Of a stretch of DNA of 64,000 nucleotides, positions 9,601-56,562 are shown in pieces. The position numbers were made by a program, and so were the translations under genes. Position 1 is the stretch's first letter; the number at the start of each line of letters is the position of its first letter. Source of the DNA: Sacculina carcini (lineage: Eukaryota > Arthropoda > Thecostraca > Sacculinidae); assembly GCA_916048095.2 (NCBI GenBank), contig OU696595.1, positions 1,995,295 to 2,059,294 of the forward strand. The letters are read 5' to 3'. The notes under the pieces are model-generated. The model did no database searches, was not told the origin of the DNA, and saw nothing but the letters and a program-made list of their open reading frames with translations.

Positions 9601-12600
9601 GTTATGGTAGATTTTGTTTGTGTCGATTGACACTGATGAAGAAGACCACGAGCGTATCATGGAGTTCTTCGGCATGTCCAAGTCGGAAGTTCCTGCCATG
9701 CGTATTATTCGCATGGCCGACGAGATGACCAAGTACAAGCCGGCAGGAGAAGGGCAAGAGCTGACCGAGCAGAATATCCGCCAATTCGTCGAGTCTTTCC
9801 TCGATGGCTCTCTCAAGGTATCTGCCCCACTCAGTGTGTCAGTGTATTATGTGTGTCAGTGTCAGTGTATTATGTGTGTCAGTGTCAGTGTATTATGTGT
9901 GTCAGTGTATTATGTGTGTCAGTGTCAGTGTATTATGTGTGTATTGTGTGTGTCAGTGTGTGTATTGTGTATTATGTGTGCCAGTGTCAGTGTTAGTGTA
10001 TTATGTGTGTCAGTGTCAGTGTATTATGTGTGTCAGTGTATTATGTGTGTCAGTGTGTGTGTCAGTGTATTATGTGTGCCAGTGTTAGTGTTAGTGTATT
10101 ATGTGTGCCAGTGTGTGTATTATGTGTATCAGTGTCAGTGTGTGTATTATGTGTGTTTTGTGTGTGTCAATATGTGTGATAAACAAATATATTTACAAAC
10201 GTGTACACATATTAACAACACTACAATGAAATGGAGGCGGCGTTGCCACGAATGACGGCCAGGCTTATTCGCTGCCGAAGCCAGGCCGTCTCTCGCGGCT
10301 CCCCTGAACGCTCACTGATTCTTCCGCCCAAGAGCTTCACGAAGTCGTCCAGGGATGCCCCCATCACGCCGGTGGTCTCGATGGCCAGCGGCACGAAATC
10401 GTACCGCTGGCACAGTTCTGCGTAGCGCCGCCGCTTTCGCTCTTCCGCCGCCCGCGCTGCTGCCCCGGGAGTGACCGCGCCGTCCAGCAGATGTGTGGCG
10501 TGGCAGGCGGCCGGCATTGCGACTGCAGGAGAGGCTATGGTGGCCCCACCTGTCAGTTGTGGCACCGCAGCAACATCTGTGCGGCTCTTGCACTGCGGCA
10601 CCAAGTCGCAACGCCACGCCGACTCGGACGGCTTCGTCTGGCAGCAGCAAGCCGAGGCTGGCGACAGGCAGCGCTGACAGCCAAGCGCCACTGTGAGGAG
10701 CGGCCGCGGCCAGGAGACGGGCTCGGCACAGCTGGTCCGCGCTTCCAAGGAGATGTTGGCGGACGGAGGAATATCGGTCATCCAGATGGCGCTGGTGCAG
10801 TGGCTCGTTCGTGCTGAAGTCCGGGCACATGGTGTCCACGAACTCCTCGATGGCTGCCACCAGAGAGCAGGGTCTGTCACCGCTTGTGCGCTGGTTAATG
10901 AGACAGACCAAGTCTTGTGTGTATGTGTGTGTTTGTCATTGTGTATATATGTGTGTGTGTCTTGTTTTTGTCAGTGTGTGTCATTGCTTATGTGTTTGTC
11001 AGTGTATGTGCACTTATGCTATTAATGAACAGTATTTTACTCATTATGTATGAACAGTATTTTGTTCTTAATTCCGACATAACATCACCGTATATATCCA
11101 TGTTTATATATAGATAAATGTGTGTGTGTGTGTGGCAGCCTCATTTGTTGAGTCAGCAGTTGCCTGAGGACTGGGATAAACAGCCGGTTAAGGTGCTGGT
11201 CTCCAACAATTTCGACCAGGTGGCGCTGGATAGCAGCAAGCATGTGCTGGTCGAGTTCTACGCTCCGTGGTGCGGTCACTGCAAGCAGCTGGCTCCCATC
11301 TACGATGAGGTGACCGTCTAACTGTGTCTTTACTGTACTTGATGTGGTCTACAGAGAAATCGACAGTAAAACCGATGTTTTTTTCTAAAAAAGGAAGTTT
11401 GTATTGTGTCGACCAAGAAACACGTTTTTTTTTTTAAGAGTCATGCAAATAATTCAAATTATAGAAATGATATATTTTGGGATGTTGAATGAATTATTTT
11501 TTATCAACACGAGTTATTCATGCTATTAGTGACCCTATCAAATTGAATTATCTTTGAATATGCGCAATAAAATGGTTATAATGTGTCTGAAAGTCCTAAT
11601 ATCATTGTTTGCACGGTACTGTGCGGCACTTCTATGTACAGTACAGTTTTGCATTCAATTATTGTGTAAGAAAGCAGGGTTTGAAAACCGTTTTTATGTT
11701 AAAATCTGAAACTGTTTTTGAAAAAACAACGGGTGGCATAATTTTTTATTATTTTTTACATATTACCTTTTTCCTATCAGAAATGAACTACGTTGATTAT
11801 AATAAGTTTCATCATTTCATTCAGCAGATCAATTATTTGCAAATATAAATATACAAACACTGCAAATATTTACACAAATACTACAAATATGCACACAAAC
11901 TTAGTGTCCCTAATGAGACTACGAATAAAAGCAGGTCGCATTAATCAGAGTGGCAATCCTGACCAGAATAACGGGCAATATTTTCGTGTAGGAAAAAACG
12001 ACTGAGGAAATACATTTAATGTACAAAAAGGTATTTCAAAACAAATAACTACATCAAAGAAACCAGTTCTAAAAACAGGTTACTAATTTTTTTTTCTTTA
12101 AACTTGCCCTGTTCTGCTGACAATTTTTTCAAAATCTCTTCATCTACGAGAAACGTCTTTAAAATCGATATTGAAAAAAACTATAGTTAGAAACAGTTTA
12201 AATTAAGTGGTTTAACCAGCTGCTTATACGTACCAGCAGGCTACTTGCTATACAAAAGGTATTTGAACGCACATCAATCAAATCTATCTTCCATAGAGAC
12301 TGTTCTAGAAAGCATTGTTTCATTAAAAAAAGTGTTAGTTTAAATAAACGTTTGGCAAAAAAAAACACTTGACCAACCAATAAACTTGTCTTGTTCTGCT
12401 GTCAACATTTTCTGAATCTGTACATTAATAAAACCAATTTAAAATCAGTTTTAAAAACAAAATTGCATTTTTTCATAAAAAACTCATGGTTTCTTTTTAA
12501 AAAACACATGATTACGAAATGAATTTGTTTTGTTCTGCTGACAAATTATTTCAAATATCCACATCATTTTAATCATCTGTAAAAACATGGAAAAATCCTA

Positions 12601-23099: not shown

Positions 23100-38110
<15,011 letters not shown>

Positions 38111-38689: not shown

Positions 38690-40095
38690 TGTATGTATCG
38701 TCAGCTTTGAGTACATGTAGACTCAAAGCTGACGTTTGAGAGTCACATTCGGAAGCTAATTTGTTCGGCATCGCGGAAACTGGGAATTATAAGAAAGGCA
38801 TATCGGATGTTCGGTAGCAGCACAATCTCAAAAAGTTGTTTTCGCTGTTTCATTTTGCCAATTCTGGAGTACTGCGCCCCCGTGTGGTCTTCTGCTGCGG
38901 ATTGTCACCTCAATCTCATCAACAGAGTTGTTAGAACTTGCAAGTTCCTCTGTGGTGACTTGGATCTTGGTGATCTTTGCCATCGTCGAAAGGTCAGCAG
39001 CGTGTGCATGCTGTACAAGATCAAGCACAACGACCATCATCCGATGAGCAAGTCAATTCCTGATGATTTCGTGGCAGCAAGAAGCACACGGTTTACATCC
39101 AAACAGCATTCCCAGTGCATGGCTCCAATTCGTTGTCGTACAAAACAATTCCAACGTTGCTTTCTTCCGGCCACTGTGTCTACTTGGAACACGTTGAAGG
39201 AGGAGGCTTTCTCGCAGAACAATTTGAACAAATTCAAGGCCAAAGTAAATGAAATGCTACTGAAAGAGCGGAATTGACTGTTAAGTCTTATTAATTGTAT
39301 ATTTATTCATATTTATTGTTATTTATTCATGCTTATTGTTATTTATTTTCTATTTATTTATATTTATTCCTATTTTACTCTCTATTTATTACTATTTATT
39401 ATTGGTTGTTGTTATTTATTAAATTATACTTTTACTCAGTGTTGGCTGTTGTTGTTTATTGAATCATATTTATTGTTGTTGCTGTTTATTGAGTCATATT
39501 TATTGTTGTTGTTGTTTATTGAATCATATTTATTGTTGTTGCTGTTTATTGAATCATATTTATTGTTGTTGTTGTTTATTGAATCATTTTTATTGTTGTT
39601 GCTGTTTATTGAATCATATTTATTGTTGTTGTTGTTTATTGAATCATATTTATTGGTGTTATTGTTTATTGAATCACATTTATTTGTGTTGTTGTTACTT
39701 ATTGAATCATATTTATATTTATTGTTGGATGTTTCTTATTGAATCATATGTATTGTTATTGATTGTTATTTATTACTTATTTATTAATATTTATTCTTAT
39801 TTATTGATGGCTGTTATTTACTGAATCACATATTTATTGTTGATTGTTATTATTTATTGAGGAACGTGGGCGGAGTGACATTATGGATTATTATCGGATG
39901 ATGGTTTATTATTTATTGTTATTTATTTATTATTTTCTTTCCAACTCTCTTTCTAGACTTTTTTCTCTTCGAACTCTCTTTCTCTCTGAATCTTTTGGGC
40001 GCTTCCGGTACATGGGGCCACCTTAGGGTGGTAATAGTGCTTGCACTCTTCCCATGCTACTGGATTTGCCTGTAATTAATAATAATAATAATAAG
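38690..40095 (+). mobile_element. LINE-A copy 3, 5'-truncated
   Basis: Starts at the point equivalent to 55117 of the full-length element (ACATGTAGACTCAAAGCT) and carries the last 156 RT-domain codons (38807-39274), the 30-bp VNTR (39450-39690) and the (AAT)n tail. At its 5' junction, 14 nt are present as an inverted copy (CGTCAGCTTTGAGT / ACTCAAAGCTGACG around ACATGTAG). Confidence 0.93.
39450..39690. repeat. 30-bp VNTR in LINE-A 3' UTR (copy 3)
   Basis: About 8 units of the same 30-bp repeat as in the other LINE-A copies. Confidence 0.93.
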
Positions 40096-40690: not shown

Positions 40691-40888
40691 TGTGCCGTGT
40701 ATACAGCCACCGTACAGAGAGCGCAGCAAACCGGCCTTGTGGTCCACCCGGCCTGCCGCCAATTTTTCCGCCGACAGCAGCACGACATACGGCTAAACAG
40801 ACGTTGCGCCCGCGATGGTAATTGCCCGATAACGCGGTCGACCCGCTCGTGCGTCCCCTGTCGACTAATCAAATGCTTCGCCGTCAGC
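40691..40888 (+). pseudogene. Nuclear-receptor-type DNA-binding domain in RLE LINE copy 2
   Basis: The translation reads CAVY-x14-HPACRQFFRRQQ, then 10 residues, then CARDGNCPITRSTRSCVPC and RLIKCFAV. This follows the nuclear receptor DBD plan: first finger C-x2-C-x13-C-x2-C, then the P-box/FFRR helix, second finger C-x5-C-x9-C-x2-C, then RLxKCxxxG. Two first-finger cysteines are replaced here (Y and H), but copy 3 has cysteine at both. FFRR, NCPI and CRLxKCF are nuclear-receptor hallmarks. The NR assignment is an inference from the cysteine spacing and these motifs, seen in two diverged copies. Confidence 0.75.
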
Positions 40889-40963: not shown

Positions 40964-41106
40964 TGCCCTGTCTGTCTGTCCTGCAACTGAGGAAACAGGA
41001 CGATAACTTGCGAAACTTGCGACCGTCCTTTCCACCACTCCTGTGTGGGCGTCACCCGGGATCAGGCCGAGGCACTACCTTTGTGGAGCTGCGATAAGTG
41101 CCTGCG
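40964..41106 (+). pseudogene. PHD-type zinc finger in RLE LINE copy 2
   Basis: C-x2-C ... CETCDRPFHHSC ... WSCDKC gives the C4HC3 order of a PHD finger. One in-frame TGA lies between the first two cysteine pairs. Confidence 0.7.
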
Positions 41107-42229
41107 ATGCCGCAGCGAGAAAGAGATTAGATTCCTTCGACGAGATTGACAGCAATACACCAACCGACCTCACCGCCGCACTTTTCGAGTTGTGTCTGCG
41201 ATCCAGTGTGTACCAGCACGTGTCACGCGCTCTGCGACATCGAGTTGCAGCTGAACTGTCGCAGCGAATCACGGCTGCACTGGAGGAGCGCTCTCTCGGT
41301 GTCTGGTAGCGTTTGGTATCATACACAGCTACTGGCCCTTTTTTGTATAACCAACCCAGCCACTGCCGACATACAGCGCCGAGGGCGGAGAGCGAGGACG
41401 AAGCCAGATCGGGATGCGTCCGAAACAAGTGAGCCGCTGGTGACATTGCTGGTGCACTACGATTGCTCACTTCATGCGACAGCGTGGTCGGATGCAGCGA
41501 ATAAGTGACCAGGGAGCTGGAGGAAAAACATCCAGCAGTGCTCGATTGCGAGCAGCCTCCGCCATGTCGTGACTGCCTCGAGCTCCGCGTAGAGAAGCAG
41601 AAGGTCCAGAAAGCCATCAACAGCCTGCCTAAAGGCTCCTCTGGTGGACTCGACGGCCTGAGGCCACTTCACCTTCGCCAACTTGTCTCGCAGCAAACGG
41701 CAGAGGCTGGTCAACAGCTGTTAGCTGCACTCACAGCGTTATCCAACTGCGCCATCGCCGGCCGGATTCCAGACTGCGCCAGACCCGCTTTCTACAGCGC
41801 GCGTCTCATTGCATTGCGCAAGAATTCGTCTGGTCGTGCAGGGGCGTTGAGCAGGGGGATACACTCGGACCACTGTTATGCGCCCTGGCCGTGGACTCTA
41901 TCGCACAATCAATGAAATCACCTTTAAACGTGTGGTACCTCGTAGATGCGACTCTTGCCGGACCAAGACACACCGTCTTAACAGACGTCGGCCGCTTCCT
42001 GCCAGCCCTCCACTACATCGGTCTAAATATCAACTCCAGAAAATGCGAGGTAACTCCTGGGCCCACCTGACGACAAGAGCAATGGACAGAACAACGCAGC
42101 AGCTTTGTTAAATGAGGCGGCGGAGACTCATATGGATAAGCTGCAGCTCCTCGGCGCCCCGCTCTGAAGCGGGAGCATAGGCAGGGCGCTGAACATCATC
42201 AGCGACGCCACATACCTGTTGATTGAAAG

Positions 42230-42308: not shown

Positions 42309-43395
42309 GCGGGCGGCTCCGTGCTACAAAGCAAGAGACCAGCTGAGGACAATAGATGAATGCCTCCGATCGGCCATCAGCGCGTGCTGCAACGTCCAGC
42401 TGAACGATGATCGGTGGATACAAGCGTCCCTCCCAGTTCGAATGGGAGGCATAGGCGATAGGCGTCTGGAGGACGTCGCCCTGCCGGCTCACATCGCCTC
42501 TCTGGTGTCCGCCGGAGACCTGGTCTGTCAGATTACCCGTTGCAGCAGCGACGATAGACCCGGTCCTCTGGTGGCTGTCATCGAGGAGTACGTCCGCCGT
42601 CAGTGCCCGGACTTCGATGCGGATGAGCCCCACAATCAACGCCATCTGGATGAAACAGCGTCCCGCGTTCGCCTAAATAACCTGGATTGCGCCGACCAAG
42701 TGGACCGCGCACGGCTGAAGGCCGCTGCAGCGCCTTACAGCGGAACCTGGCTAGGGGCCGTACCGGTCGCCAACCTCTGTCTGCTCCTGCCGGACGAAGC
42801 CGTGCGAATCGGTGTGGCGCTACGCATCGGAGTGGCTATACAGCAGCCACACAGATGGCGCTGCGGCAAGACCTCAGATGGATGGGGGCATCACAGCCTC
42901 CTGCGACCGCAGCGCCGGCAGGCTGCCACGGCACAAGTTGCTAAATGATGTCATATATCGCAGTCTGGCGTCAGCCGGCGTCGGAGTGGTCCTGAAACCA
43001 CGTGGCCTCGACCGAGGAAATGGCCGAGGTCCAGATGGCTCAACAATCTTCCCTTTCCGTCTCGGCAAGTCGCTGCTTTGGGACGCAACATGTGTCAACA
43101 CATTCGGCGCCACACACCTTGTGGAATGCGCGGTCGTCCCAGGAGCAGCAGCAAAGAGCGCAGAGGAGAGGAAGCGGCGGCGCTACGCTGAACTCGTATG
43201 ATTTCGTGCCTCTAGCCGTGGAGACCACCGGTGTACTAGGCGAAGTCTTCGAAGAGTTCATAAAGTGCCTCGGTCATCGCATGAGTGAAAGGAGCGATCG
43301 TCCCCCGAAACTGCCTGGTTGAGATAGCGGATCGGTCTGGCTGTCGTCCGCGGTAACACCGCATCCATCTGCCCACTGGGCAACTTTAGATAATT

Positions 43396-46989: not shown

Positions 46990-47258
46990 ATATCTTTGAT
47001 ATATACACACACTAACACACACTAACAGACACTAACACACAATAACACAAACACACACTAACACACACTAACAGACACTAACACACACTAACACACAATA
47101 ACACACACTAACACACACTAACAGACAATAACACACACTAACACACACTAACAGACACCAACAGACATTAACACACACTAACACACAATAACAGACACTA
47201 GCACACACTAACAGACACTAGCACACACTAACACACAATAACACACACTAACACACAG
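46990..47258. repeat. CACTAACA minisatellite, left of RLE LINE copy 3
   Basis: About 270 bp of ACTAACACAC, ACTAACAGAC and ATAACACAC units. The same units recur at 50704-50920 on the other side of the RLE LINE. Confidence 0.95.
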
Positions 47259-47616: not shown

Positions 47617-47805
47617 TGTGCTGTATGTAATGCTGCCGCGAGAGCCGGCCCCAACACACCAATCTGCCCTGCGTGCAAATAGTTTTCTCAAGAACTAAGG
47701 ACCGCAAAATGTCTTGCAATCGCGGCGGCAACTGTCCACTGACACCGATGAACAGGAGATGCACTGGATGCCGCCTGGCCCGCTGCTTCGCCATCGGAGT
47801 GGATC
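47617..47805 (+). pseudogene. Nuclear-receptor-type DNA-binding domain in RLE LINE copy 3
   Basis: First finger CAVC-x12-CPACK, with all four cysteines present. After a one-base shift follow VFSRTKDRKMS and the second finger CNRGGNCPLTPMNRRCTGCR with LARCFAIGV. Cysteine spacing is within one residue of the nuclear receptor plan (second finger C-x5-C-x8-C-x2-C). Together with copy 2 it shows both fingers of the module. Confidence 0.75.
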
Positions 47806-47837: not shown

Positions 47838-47995
47838 CTGTGCGCCCACTGCAACACGCCCAGTGCCAACGAACGCACGATATCGTGCGCAGCTTGCGAC
47901 CAAAACTATCACCTCACATGTGTGGGAGTCACTCGCTCGTAAGCTGACATATTGCTGGCGTGGCACTGTCGCGGCTGTCTACGACTGCAGGCGGA
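47838..47995 (+). pseudogene. PHD-type finger in RLE LINE copy 3
   Basis: LCAHCNTPSANERTISCAAC then DQNYHLTCVGVTRS, a TAA, and LLAWHCRGC in the same frame. The C4HC3 order is complete except for the stop at 47940-47942. Confidence 0.75.
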
Positions 47996-48302
47996 GTGCT
48001 GCGACATTCACCCACTGGAGGGAATCGACACAAACGACGACACACCGGACTATCTCGCCACTGCACTGGCTTCTCTGCGACAGCAGCGCCACGTGCGGCA
48101 GCATGTGCCCCGCGCCCTGCGTCACCGTGTTGCAGCCGACCTCACCGAGCGTATCACGGCGGCTCTGCAGCAGCGCACACCCACTGCTTGGTGGAAGCTG
48201 CTGTCTTACGCTGTGACAGGCCCTCTGAGCACCGGGATCATAACACCACAGCCCGGTGCACATTATCACACACGCCCGCGGTCGTAGAACGAGGACGCCG
48301 CC

Positions 48303-49451
48303 GTGTCTCGCAGCGTGAGGGCCAAGTGCGCTGACGGCGATATTCGTGGGGCTCTGCGCATCCTCACATCGGACGACGCTGTCGCCGGCGTCAGCGATGA
48401 CGTCACACGGGCGCTGGAAGCCAAACAGCCGCCGTCAACCGAGGACGAGCCACAGTGGCCACAGAACCAGTTGCCGGGGCCGTCTTTCGATGAGAGTGAC
48501 GTCAAAGCCGCCGTGCACGCGTTGCCGAAGAGCTCGTCGGGCGGACTGGACGGTCTCCGACCAATGCACCTGCGCCAGCTGCTCGCCCCACAGACAGCGG
48601 AGGCCGGAAACCAGCTGCTGAAGGCGCTCACTGCCCTCATCAATTGCTGCGCACAGGGCCGGATCCCCGACTTCGCTAATGGCGCATTTTTCAGTGCATG
48701 CCTCGTTGCCCTTAGGAAAAAATCGGGGAGTTTGCGCCCAATAGCAGTGGGCAGCATCTTGCGGCAAATCGCCAGCCAGCTGATAGCCGGCAATCTGGCT
48801 TCGGCGCTGGCGCACGAGTTACGTCCAGTGCAGCTGGGCGTATGCACAAGGATTGGATGTGAGGCGACCGTGCACGCAACGCGCCACTTCATCTCAGCGA
48901 ACAAGGGGCGGCGCGGTCACGTCCTGGTAAAGCTAGATGTGGCCAACGCTTTCAATTGCGTCAACCGCCGCACCCTGCTGGATGAGGTGGGCCGCCGCTT
49001 CCCCGTTGTACTGCCGCTCGTCGCACAGGCATACGGCCAACCAACACCGCTGTTTGACGGTGCCAGGCGTATCTGGTCGTGCCGTGGTATACAGCAGGGA
49101 GACCCCCTTGGTCCCGCACTGTTCGCCCTCGCGGTCAATCCGGTGGCTCAGCAGCCTGAGTCAACGCTGAACGTCTGGTACCTCGACGACGCCACAATAG
49201 GAGGACCATCAGATGTCGTGCAATCAGACATCAGGCGTCTCGTTCCAGCCCTGCACAACATCGGCCACACACTAAACACCACCAAGTGCGAGGTCATCGG
49301 GCTCGGACCCTCCGACGACGACACAACCGACTTGCTGATCCAGAGGCACCTGCCGGGGGCCACCTCCACACCAGCGGCAATGGCGACTCTTCTGGGTGCA
49401 CCTCTCGAGTCCGAAGGCATACCGGAAGCCCTGAACAAAGTCCATCACTAA
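48303..49451 (+). CDS. RLE LINE copy 3 reverse transcriptase
   Basis: 382 codons open. RT signatures: SSSGGLDGLRPMHLRQLL, motif A VLVKLDVANAFNCVNR, motif B GIQQGDPLGPALFALAV, motif C WYLDDATIG, then the HTLNTTKCEVIGLG thumb entry. All three catalytic aspartates are present. It is flanked by in-frame stops (48285, 49449), so the copy as a whole is dead although the RT core looks intact. Confidence 0.88.
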   Translation: MSRSVRAKCADGDIRGALRILTSDDAVAGVSDDVTRALEAKQPPSTEDEPQWPQNQLPGPSFDESDVKAAVHALPKSSSGGLDGLRPMHLRQLLAPQTAEAGNQLLKALTALINCCAQGRIPDFANGAFFSACLVALRKKSGSLRPIAVGSILRQIASQLIAGNLASALAHELRPVQLGVCTRIGCEATVHATRHFISANKGRRGHVLVKLDVANAFNCVNRRTLLDEVGRRFPVVLPLVAQAYGQPTPLFDGARRIWSCRGIQQGDPLGPALFALAVNPVAQQPESTLNVWYLDDATIGGPSDVVQSDIRRLVPALHNIGHTLNTTKCEVIGLGPSDDDTTDLLIQRHLPGATSTPAAMATLLGAPLESEGIPEALNKVHH

Positions 49452-50703
49452 CTGGATCTGCTCATCAGGCGCACCACTAACATCGGCTCGCACCCAGCGC
49501 TATTATTCCTGAGCAGATATGCATCGGTACCGCGGGCCATGTACCTGATGAGCAGCGCCAGTATACAGGGCGACCTCTCAACTCGTCAACATGGACGAGA
49601 GCCTCCGATCGGCCATCGGCAGCTGCTGCAACGTCGACCTGGACGACGACCAATGGGAGCAGGCGTCGCTACCCGTCCCTCTGGGTGGCATCGGGGCTAG
49701 GCGGCTGGTCGACGTGGCACTACCTGCTCATATCGCCTCAATGGAGGCCGCTGGGGACTTGGTCAGTCATATAATCGACCACCGACGCGGTGACAGATCT
49801 GGTCTCCCGGCGCCCCCTGTGGAGGAGTTTGTGAGCAAAATGTGTCCGGCCTTCAGCCAAGATCAGCCCCTCACTCAGCGCCACCTCGACATGAGTGCGT
49901 CAGAGCACCGCTGGAACAATATTATACAGAGAGTGAACCAGGTGGACCGAGCTCGTCTTCTGACTGCGGCTGCGTCTCATATCGGCGCCTGATTGTCCGC
50001 CCTTCCGGTCATTAGCTTCGGCCTGCTGCTGCGCGACGAAGCCGCTCGCGTGGGCGTGGCGCTACTCCTCGGACTCGCCATCCAGCAGCCGCACAGGTGC
50101 CATTGCGGCTCTATGACCGACCAATGAGGCCACCACAGCCTGTAGTGCTGCCACAACATCGGCCGACTGCCGCGTCACACTGCCCTGAACGACATCGTCC
50201 ATCGCAGTTTGGCGTCGGCAGGAATTGCGGCAGTGCTGGAACCTCGCGGTCTGAACCGAGGCGACGGCCGCCGGCCGGACGGGATCACCATCTTTCCCTT
50301 CCGGCGCGGCAAATCGCTGGTTTAGGACGTGACGTGCACCAACACATTCAGCAGAGCACACCTGTTGGAGGGTGCAGTCGCCCCCGGGGCAGCGGCTCGG
50401 GCGGCCGAGGAGACCAAAAGACGGCGCTACGCGGACCTGAGCCAGCGGTATGATTTCGCACCGCTGGCCATTGAAACAACCGACGCGTTGGGTTCCGCGT
50501 TTGACAACCTAATCAAGACCCTCTTTCGTCGAATCACAGAGCGCTCGGCAGAACCGCGCGAGACGGCCTGACTCAGACAGCGGATCAGTCTGGCGGTCGT
50601 GCGGGGCAACGCGGCAGCCATCACCAGGTGAGGTGGATGACGCAGATCAAGACGTGGAATAATAATGAATAAAATATTGAGTGAGTTTTGAGACTAGTAC
50701 GGA

Positions 50704-50954
50704 CCATACTAACACACACATATACGAGTACATACACACACATACACACACACACACACTAACATATACTAACACGCACACTAACACACACTAACACACA
50801 ATAACACGCACACTAACACACACAATAACACACACTAACATACAATAACACACACTAACAGACACACTAACACATACTAACACACACTAACAGACACTAA
50901 CACACACACACACTGACACACACACCCACACACTGACACACACACACGCACTCA
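50704..50954. repeat. CACTAACA minisatellite, right of RLE LINE copy 3
   Basis: ACTAACACACA and AATAACACAC units, then CACTGACACACACAC. Same class as 46990-47258. Confidence 0.95.
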
Positions 50955-51010
50955 TTTACATTACATTAGGATATAGCGCCCTACACCTAGAGGGTCGCTA
51001 GGGCGCTGCA
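50955..51010 (-). mobile_element. Possible 3'-end stub of a CR1/L2-like LINE
   Basis: On the minus strand AGCGCCCTAGCGACCCTCTA, a GCGCTATATCC end and a (TAATG)n tail resemble the 3' ends of CR1/L2-type LINEs. AGCGCCCTA/TAGGGCGCT (50975-50983, 50999-51007) forms a short stem. Confidence 0.4.
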
Positions 51011-55681: not shown

Positions 55682-55854
55682 CTGTTGAGTCTTATTAATT
55701 GTATATTTATTCATATTTATTGTTATTTATTCATGCTTATTGTTATATATTTTCTATTTATTTATATTTATTCCTATTTTACTCTCTATTTATTACTATT
55801 TATTATTGGTTGTTGTTATTTATTAAATTATACTTTTACTCAGTGTTGGCTGTT

Positions 55855-56165
55855 GTTGTTTATTGAATCATATTTATTGTTGTTGCTGTTTATTGAGTCA
55901 TATTTATTGTTGTTGTTGTTTATTGAATCATATTTATTGTTGTTGCTGTTTATTGAATCATATTTATTGTTGTTGTTGTTTATTGAATAATTTTTATTGT
56001 TGTTGCTGTTTATTGAATCATATTTATTGTTGTTGTTGTTTATTGAATCATATTTATTGTTGTTGCTGTTTATTGAATCATATTTATTGTTGTTGTTGTT
56101 TATTGAGTCATATTTATTGGTGTTATTGTTTATTGAATCATATTTATTTGTGCTGTTGTTACTTA
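55855..56165. repeat. 30-bp VNTR in LINE-A 3' UTR (full-length copy)
   Basis: About 10 units of TATTTATTGTTGTTG(T/C)TGTTTATTGAATCA-type repeat, two more than the truncated copies. Confidence 0.93.
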
Positions 56166-56562
56166 TTGAATCATATTTATATTTATTGTTGGATGTTTCT
56201 TTTTTGAATCATATGTATTGTTCTTGATTGTTATTTATTACTTATTTATTAATATTTATTCTTATTTATTGATGGCTGTTTTTTAATTAATCACATATTT
56301 ATTGTTGATTGTTATTATTTATTGAGGAACGTGGGCGGAGTGACATTATGGATTGTTATCGGATGATGGTTTATTATTTATTGTTATTTATTTATTATTT
56401 TCTTTCCAACTCTCTTTCTAGACTTTTTTCTCTTCGAACTCTCTTTCTCTCTGAATCTTTTGGGCGCTTCCGGTACATGGGGCCACCTTAGGGTGGTAAT
56501 AGTGCTTGCACTCTTCCCATGCTACTGGATTTGCCTGTAATTAATAATAATAATAATACCAA

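Follow-up and report, generated by a model that had tools for sequence, protein, structure and literature searches.

The genome of the thecostracan Sacculina carcini contains a family of long interspersed nuclear elements (LINEs) of the restriction-like endonuclease (RLE) type whose open reading frame (ORF) begins with a zinc-finger module (Pfam zf-C4, PF00105) that is, judged by its sequence, homologous to the DNA-binding domain (DBD) of nuclear receptors. Receptor DBDs are familiar as components of the transcription factors of animals. Members of the family, here called zf-C4 LINEs, integrate into (CA)n microsatellites, where the sense strand mostly reads CA. We put at roughly 75 % the probability that an RLE LINE with a captured receptor DBD occupies (CA)n and uses the DBD to hold the repeat during nicking. 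An earlier note on the 64,000 nucleotides analysed here (the window; contig OU696595.1 of assembly GCA_916048095.2, positions 1,995,295 to 2,059,294 of the forward strand) had pointed out the module in two retrotransposon copies, copies 2 and 3 below; its observation is confirmed and extends further than first described.

Copies and domain architecture

Whole-genome searches covered 264 Mb, with the best 150 of 213 candidates scored for zf-C4 alone and the best 150 of 266 for zf-C4 together with a plant homeodomain (PHD) finger. The zf-C4 search gave at least 147 matches, true receptor genes among them: the top matches (L006–L013) are loci without the reverse transcriptase (RT) of the zf-C4 LINE that resemble ordinary receptor genes, and many of the remaining matches sit inside open frames of about 1030 amino acids (aa). 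The combined query gave at least 151 matches, and by hand count at least 44 of those listed unite zf-C4 and PHD with an open frame of ≥1000 aa, a query start of ≤12 and a stop-free match. Three of the 44 (C1:11935327, C1:9454376 and C12:7550768) extend to 2444, 1871 and 1863 aa, perhaps because the frame continues through nested or tandem insertions.

Twenty long-frame loci (L014–L033) and 20 others (L034–L053) were fetched, chosen by Pfam score and frame length, and their copies sorted into seven subfamilies, A–G. Subfamily A has many copies with RTs 95–99 % alike, B resembles copy 3 of the window and C resembles copy 2. Subfamily F is the most receptor-like, with 68 bits against Pfam zf-C4, and its fetched loci hold no frame over 500 aa. 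When one ORF each of A, B, C, D, E and G was scanned with Pfam, zf-C4 (28.4 to 37.9 bits) and RVT_1 exceeded their cut-offs in all six and PHD in five, subfamily C reaching 21.2 bits against a cut-off of 24. With L028 set apart, YLDD or FLDD, CCHC, PD..D and K..[RK]Y were all present in 19/19 long ORFs and the PHD pattern in 18/19. The domains are arranged, in a single frame of about 1030 aa, as zf-C4, PHD, RT, CCHC and RLE, and dozens of apparently unbroken copies of this build are present in the genome. L028, a member of subfamily A, follows head to tail on a subfamily B copy, directly behind the apparent 3' end and A-tail of the latter.

Relatives in the databases were collected with a read-through of copy 3, the best 7996 candidates sharing most words being scored, which gave at least 87 related proteins. 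Among them P0004 is a single open frame of 1045 aa with Pfam matches to zf-C4 (E 4.4e-15) and RVT_1, and the alignment reveals a PHD-type cysteine pattern between zf-C4 and RT. P0002, P0003 and P0006 are uninformative on the DBD, because their sequences start at or near the zf-C4 end. A search with an N-terminal profile returned one protein among 2669 candidates, P0088 of Eriocheir sinensis, named 'protein ultraspiracle homolog', which has a zf-C4 match of E 1.8e-14 and aligns to P0004 with 78 % identity over 97 aa in the zf-C4 region and then with 74 % over 70 aa of the pre-RT part of the LINE. As both parts match P0004, this crab gene model is most likely a deleted LINE copy and not a receptor. 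Other zf-C4 gene models may likewise be LINE fragments. RVT_1 was found in 42/43 and 45/45 members of the two sets into which the 88 database proteins fall, the exception being the P0088 fragment, and PHD in 11/43 and 2/45. No Pfam match to a ligand-binding domain was obtained in P0004, P0088, the other 86 database proteins (E 0.01) or the six ORFs scanned above.

A search with the P0004 region returned just P0004, and its sensitivity is doubtful, since P0003 shares words with it and was missed. Scans of viral contigs with P0004 and with the alignment found no relative. Those of genome contigs found only LINEs of 28–31 % identity, in five prokaryote bins, in which three zf-C4 patterns had no match. 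These bacteria-named bins with RLE LINE sequence (L001–L005) probably reflect eukaryote contamination.

That the module is a chance flank, a host exon beside a LINE or the product of a chimeric assembly might be suspected from the broken copies of the window and from P0004 being known from a single contig. We regard this as virtually excluded, as single open frames with identical domain order occur at many independent loci and the crab gene model, too, joins zf-C4 to the LINE pre-RT region. A receptor gene adjacent to a LINE was likewise rejected, given the finger pattern matches at the 5' ends of the window copies and the single frames.

Origin of the receptor-type domain

All eight zinc-binding cysteines of a nuclear-receptor DBD are found in the module, with a spacing that departs from that of receptors: the first finger has x12 to x15 and in no case x13, and the second has x9 just in subfamily F and the crab-type rows and x8 in the others. 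The earlier note had left capture of a receptor DBD and convergence on it side by side; homology over both fingers, the clade formed by the carriers and the DBD tree favour capture. Convergence, by which a different N-terminal finger would have drifted toward a receptor-like form, could draw on subfamilies A and B, which are less receptor-like (first finger x15 and x12, respectively, second finger x8). We consider it very unlikely, as P0004 aligns with the androgen receptor DBD 1r4i along the whole domain (E 6e-15) and subfamily F has the high Pfam score given above; a match that spans both fingers argues for homology and not for a short shared motif.

For the trees of the LINE proteins, whole-protein alignments were trimmed by keeping only columns with residues in 60 % or more of the rows. 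In an alignment of 43 of the proteins, no column among the 68 that P0004 occupies with its zf-C4 passes this threshold, and the DBD should therefore not drive the whole-protein trees. In an 85-row tree, without P0085–P0088 and with copy 3 of the window, copy 3 falls inside a 9-row clade with a support of 99 in the Shimodaira–Hasegawa-like approximate likelihood-ratio test (SH-aLRT). A 41-row tree, built from 8 rows of our own and 33 of the 88 database proteins, contains a 16-row clade (SH-aLRT 100) in which the zf-C4 rows (9/9) are joined by the 3 rows starting at the zf-C4 end; rows with PHD only adjoin this clade and C2H2 rows are more distant. A phylogeny against animal nuclear receptors, as the earlier note had advised, bore out the kinship of the LINE domains: in a tree of the DBD itself (22 rows, 68 columns), 12 LINE rows split from 10 receptors with a support of 100/99.

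These trees favour, at the level of sequence, a single capture, since the carriers form one clade and the LINE DBDs stand together against the receptors. Repeated capture, in which subfamilies would have acquired their DBDs from different receptors, could explain why the DBDs are highly diverged among subfamilies and the DBD tree is long-branched over its 68 columns. Given the same two groupings we judge it improbable, if a little less so than convergence. A single uptake by an RLE LINE that already had its PHD finger, earlier than the split between crab-type elements and those of S. carcini, would fit the topology; alternatively, the zf-C4 LINE may have been transferred horizontally between hosts.

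Selection on the module was assessed by the ratio of nonsynonymous to synonymous substitution rates (dN/dS), all values being given without a significance test. The pooled zf-C4 ratio is 0.31 in subfamily A (8 pairs), 0.36 in B (L023/L027) and 0.28 in F (3 pairs), the pair L023/L021 shows zero amino-acid changes in this region, and 3/8 between-family pairs, those where the ratio is computable, lie at 0.26–0.52. The eight cysteines are kept in every long-frame row of this set, which is not independent evidence, because the pattern used to pick the rows requires them. The lysine after the fourth cysteine of the first finger, which we take to make a base contact, is present in 2/12 LINE rows vs 10/10 receptor rows; its scarcity would fit a changed DNA specificity.

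Several observations weigh against the reading preferred here. Only P0004 and P0088 among the 88 database proteins carry zf-C4 (2/43 and 0/45 in the two sets); most of the 88 are truncated or lie outside the zf-C4 clade. PHD is not among the Pfam matches of P0004. The frame of L028, one of the 44 listed above, is broken before the true 3' end, so that frame length does not by itself guarantee an intact ORF. The DBD tree is short and drew long-branch warnings. On purifying selection, for which the earlier note had advised a test, the pooled ratios of A, B and F lie below 1, but the zf-C4 ratio is undefined in E and G, where the module has no silent changes, five single pairs compared over the first 90 codons spread between 0.12 and 1.33, and F gives 1.08 outside zf-C4 within the first 150 codons. 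In the AlphaFold2 model of P0004, the mean predicted local distance difference test score (pLDDT) is 85.3 and the top PDB matches are the R2 proteins 9nl3 (E 3.8e-24), 8gh6 and 9dou; the zf-C4 part, for which the note had suggested a structure prediction, is modelled with low confidence (pLDDT under 35 in P0004; P0088 mean 39.5).

Insertion target

Copies of subfamily A have a fixed 5' start directly after (CA)n, and their 3' A-tail is again followed by (CA)n. Of 20 further subfamily A copies, 13 have the full 5' start, and in the 60 nucleotides (nt) upstream of it CA on the sense strand reached a coverage of ≥0.2 in 13/13 and of ≥0.4 in 12, compared with 0/13 for GT at 0.2 and a CA background of 7 % at 0.2; this background consists of the window and 18 loci without the RT of the zf-C4 LINE and is not a random genome sample. 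In the first set of loci, all eight full 5' ends adjoined CA and none GT. At the other end, an A-tail was recognised in 32/40 copies examined, and within the 20 nt after it CA was found in 31/32 and GT in 1/32, vs 10/62 and 3/62 for control A-runs. In six of the 8 copies without a recognised A-tail, CA is evident on direct inspection (L016, L033 and four flanks). Some arrays have the same irregular unit on both flanks of the copy, as observed for copy 3 of the window, and subfamilies A, B, C, D, E and G each have members beside CA. The elements thereby combine the single ORF and the target-specific insertion of RLE-type LINEs. The hexamer-like site that the earlier note had proposed was not borne out, the target found being a (CA)n microsatellite and not a classical AGGTCA-like hexamer.

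Not every copy conforms to this target. Seven of the further subfamily A copies lack the 5' start motif; in at least two of them the 250 nt sampled are free of CA, and another is partly N. L027 and L028 have neither a recognised A-tail nor CA at the place inspected, which in L027 follows the stop, L021 (subfamily B) lies in TG on both sides, L022 is without CA at its truncated 5' end and copy 2 of the window has no CA flank. When a fixed stretch of 60–260 nt after the stop was taken, a CA coverage of 0.4 was reached by 8/19 copies. CA repeats are, moreover, abundant in this genome.

Proposed mechanism

We propose that an R2-type ancestor likely captured an animal nuclear-receptor DBD, apparently placing it before a pre-existing PHD finger. 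By analogy to R2, whose zinc finger and Myb domain sit on an upstream motif, zf-C4 would bind CA/TG repeat DNA upstream of the nick and thus likely helps to select the landing site. The PHD finger may contribute a histone contact, and both domains together would hold the repeat or its chromatin. The RLE would then nick the TG strand, and the TG end would serve as the primer from which the A-tailed RNA is reverse-transcribed. Target-primed reverse transcription of this kind fits the A-tails, the 5' truncations and the presence of the repeat on both sides. With somewhat less confidence than the DBD's role in holding the repeat, we also hold it probable that the crab and S. carcini elements constitute a (CA)n-specific LINE lineage in which the captured DBD is the target-reading head with a P-box rebuilt for a dinucleotide repeat, and whose dozens of scattered receptor-type DBD genes may be active and are in some cases catalogued as receptors.

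It is possible, though distinctly less likely, that a DBD was captured and the target is nevertheless chosen by RLE and RT or by pairing of the RNA with the repeat, with zf-C4 serving, e.g., RNA binding or nuclear retention. Some families of the HERO clade are reported to have microsatellites as targets, the partial text of PMC4640811 making no mention of a domain of this kind, and spacing of the first finger and P-box vary widely by subfamily, yet six subfamilies are found beside CA. Against such a bystander role speak the pooled zf-C4 ratios below 1 in A, B and F and, within the limit set by the row-picking pattern, the constancy of the eight cysteines. Overall, we prefer the DBD as the part that holds the repeat.

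Copies in the window

The features of the three window copies are compiled in Table 1. The residues quoted in the earlier note are found at 40691-40888 and 47617-47805. Both copies exceed the curated Pfam cut-off of zf-C4 (21.1 bits), as do the six ORFs scanned from elsewhere in the genome, so the receptor-type assignment held under the suggested PF00105 profile; the spacing departs from that of the textbook receptor, the first finger of copy 3 being x12 and the second finger x8 in both. The N-terminal position of the module was right for both copies, and the PHD finger directly after it had been overlooked. The assignment to RLE-type LINEs is upheld by the RT, CCHC and RLE motifs and by the R2 fold match, and that of a family property by the many long open copies elsewhere in the genome; with zf-C4 in 6/6 long ORFs scanned, the module is not the chance flank against which the note had cautioned.

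Table 1. Coordinates of zf-C4 LINE features in the window (positions counted from its first nucleotide).
Feature	Position	Strand	Evidence
Copy 1, 5'-truncated, same LINE group (linker and RLE)	10224..10914	-	tblastn; CA-rich sense strand on both flanks
Copy 2, decayed nuclear-receptor-type DBD (zf-C4)	40691..40888	+	PF00105, 33.1 bits, E 8e-8
Copy 2, PHD finger, one TGA inside	40964..41101	+	PF00628, E 1.1e-8 over 40991-41146
Copy 2, pre-RT and RT remnants, frames shifted	41505..42055	+	tblastn of P0004
Copy 2, RLE region; PD..D at 43031, KRRRY at 43172	42899..43369	+	tblastn, motifs
(ACACACACTA)n array 5' of copy 3, half of split target	47005..47257	+	repeat analysis
Copy 3, DBD first finger, four cysteines, frame differs from finger 2	47617..47679	+	sequence reading
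Copy 3, DBD second finger	47715..47805	+	PF00105, 22.9 bits, E 1.2e-4; pattern match
Copy 3, PHD finger, one TAA inside	47841..47978	+	PF00628, E 7.2e-6
Copy 3, reverse transcriptase, YLDD at 49179	48288..49448	+	PF00078, E 2.5e-15
Copy 3, linker, CCHC and RLE region; KRRRY at 50416	49552..50625	+	tblastn of P0004, 57 % identity
CA-rich array 3' of copy 3, unit of same kind as (ACACACACTA)n array	50712..50955	+	repeat analysis

Copies 2 and 3 are relics, because copy 2 has lost cysteines and acquired a stop ahead of the PHD finger, and copy 3 has its fingers in two frames and a stop codon separating them. In copy 2, two of the four cysteines of the first finger are replaced (C to Y and C to H) and all four of the second are kept; L025, its long-frame sister, has eight intact cysteines. 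The first finger of the copy 3 type is found in frame in L021, L022, L023 and L027 of subfamily B. In the six-frame translation of the window, a second-finger pattern has two matches and no more, at 40805 and 47715, where the two 5'-complete copies have their 5' ends; a first-finger pattern requiring FF had no match there. The top PDB matches of the second-finger piece of copy 3 are retinoic acid receptor DBDs (E 7e-4). Between copies 2 and 3, the ratio of nonsynonymous to synonymous differences (pN/pS) is 0.66 over second finger and PHD and 0.40 over the linker, both weak values owing to saturation.

Other repeats of the window were also recorded. Another LINE is present in three copies (frames ending at 35001, 39277 and 55681) that share a 30-base tandem repeat 170 bases downstream of each (35171-35451, 39447-39767 and 55851-56191), probably its 3' tail. 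A nearly identical 20-base unit (AATGTATCACGTCAATAACT) forms three arrays within 9 kb, at 27913-29012, 32203-33440 and 35826-36802.

Comparison with known elements

The closest structural counterparts are the R2 proteins (R2Bm, R2Tg), the first fold matches of P0004, with which the zf-C4 LINE has in common the single ORF, an R2-like RT, linker, CCHC and RLE, as well as N-terminal DNA-binding fingers and target-specific insertion. R2 carries one or more C2H2 zinc fingers and Myb and targets 28S rDNA (PMC10499050 and PMC7650587, partial texts), whereas the zf-C4 LINE has zf-C4 and PHD and a (CA)n target; no Pfam match to Myb or C2H2 was found in P0004 or the six own ORFs. Membership in the R2 clade was rejected on the (CA)n target. 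The HERO clade shares the RLE type and, in some families, a microsatellite-specific target; it was compared by description only, and in the text of PMC4640811 'nuclear receptor' and 'PHD' each occur 0 times. According to the same text, Utopia/NeSL elements are RLE-type LINEs with N-terminal zinc-finger motifs, some of which gained RNase H or a Ulp1-like protease, and target U2 small nuclear RNA or spliced-leader genes (PMC4640811); this affiliation was dismissed on the location in CA repeats, and Rfam gave no match within the window. The BLAG clade is described as having a bipartite BLAG motif between zinc finger and RT (PMC7650587, partial text).

With nuclear receptors the LINE shares DBD homology over both fingers; it differs in lacking the ligand-binding domain, in the altered finger spacing and P-box and in its position within a retrotransposon ORF. 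Its tree neighbours, the PHD-only RLE LINEs (P0008, P0009, P0011, P0013, P0015, P0019 and P0021), have a PHD-like finger before the RT, but an N-terminus of their own ahead of it and no zf-C4. In P0013 and P0021 this N-terminal stretch ends in NPGP, which to our eye resembles a 2A peptide. The predicted proteins P0017 and P0029 contain a partial ubiquitin hydrolase domain (UCH), which may reflect a fusion or wrongly joined gene models.

Conclusion

A search of the open-access literature found no retrotransposon or LINE with a nuclear-receptor domain, in agreement with the earlier note, whose author knew of none. In the partial texts of PMC6451197 and PMC7642931, zf-C4 appears solely where transcription-factor domains are tabulated. 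Zinc fingers, an acquired RNase H or protease, and microsatellite targets were already known among RLE LINEs (PMC4640811, partial text); a receptor DBD as a LINE targeting head would, as far as seen, be new. Since R2-type LINEs are under development as genome-insertion tools (PMC12222951), a new targeting head is of practical interest, and the family links RLE LINEs to a well-understood protein-DNA interface. A selfish element that keeps a receptor DBD through many subfamilies represents a natural experiment in changing the DNA specificity of this fold. As the crab 'ultraspiracle' model exemplifies, such LINEs can inflate both the number of zf-C4 domains counted and the receptor names assigned in genomes of invertebrates.
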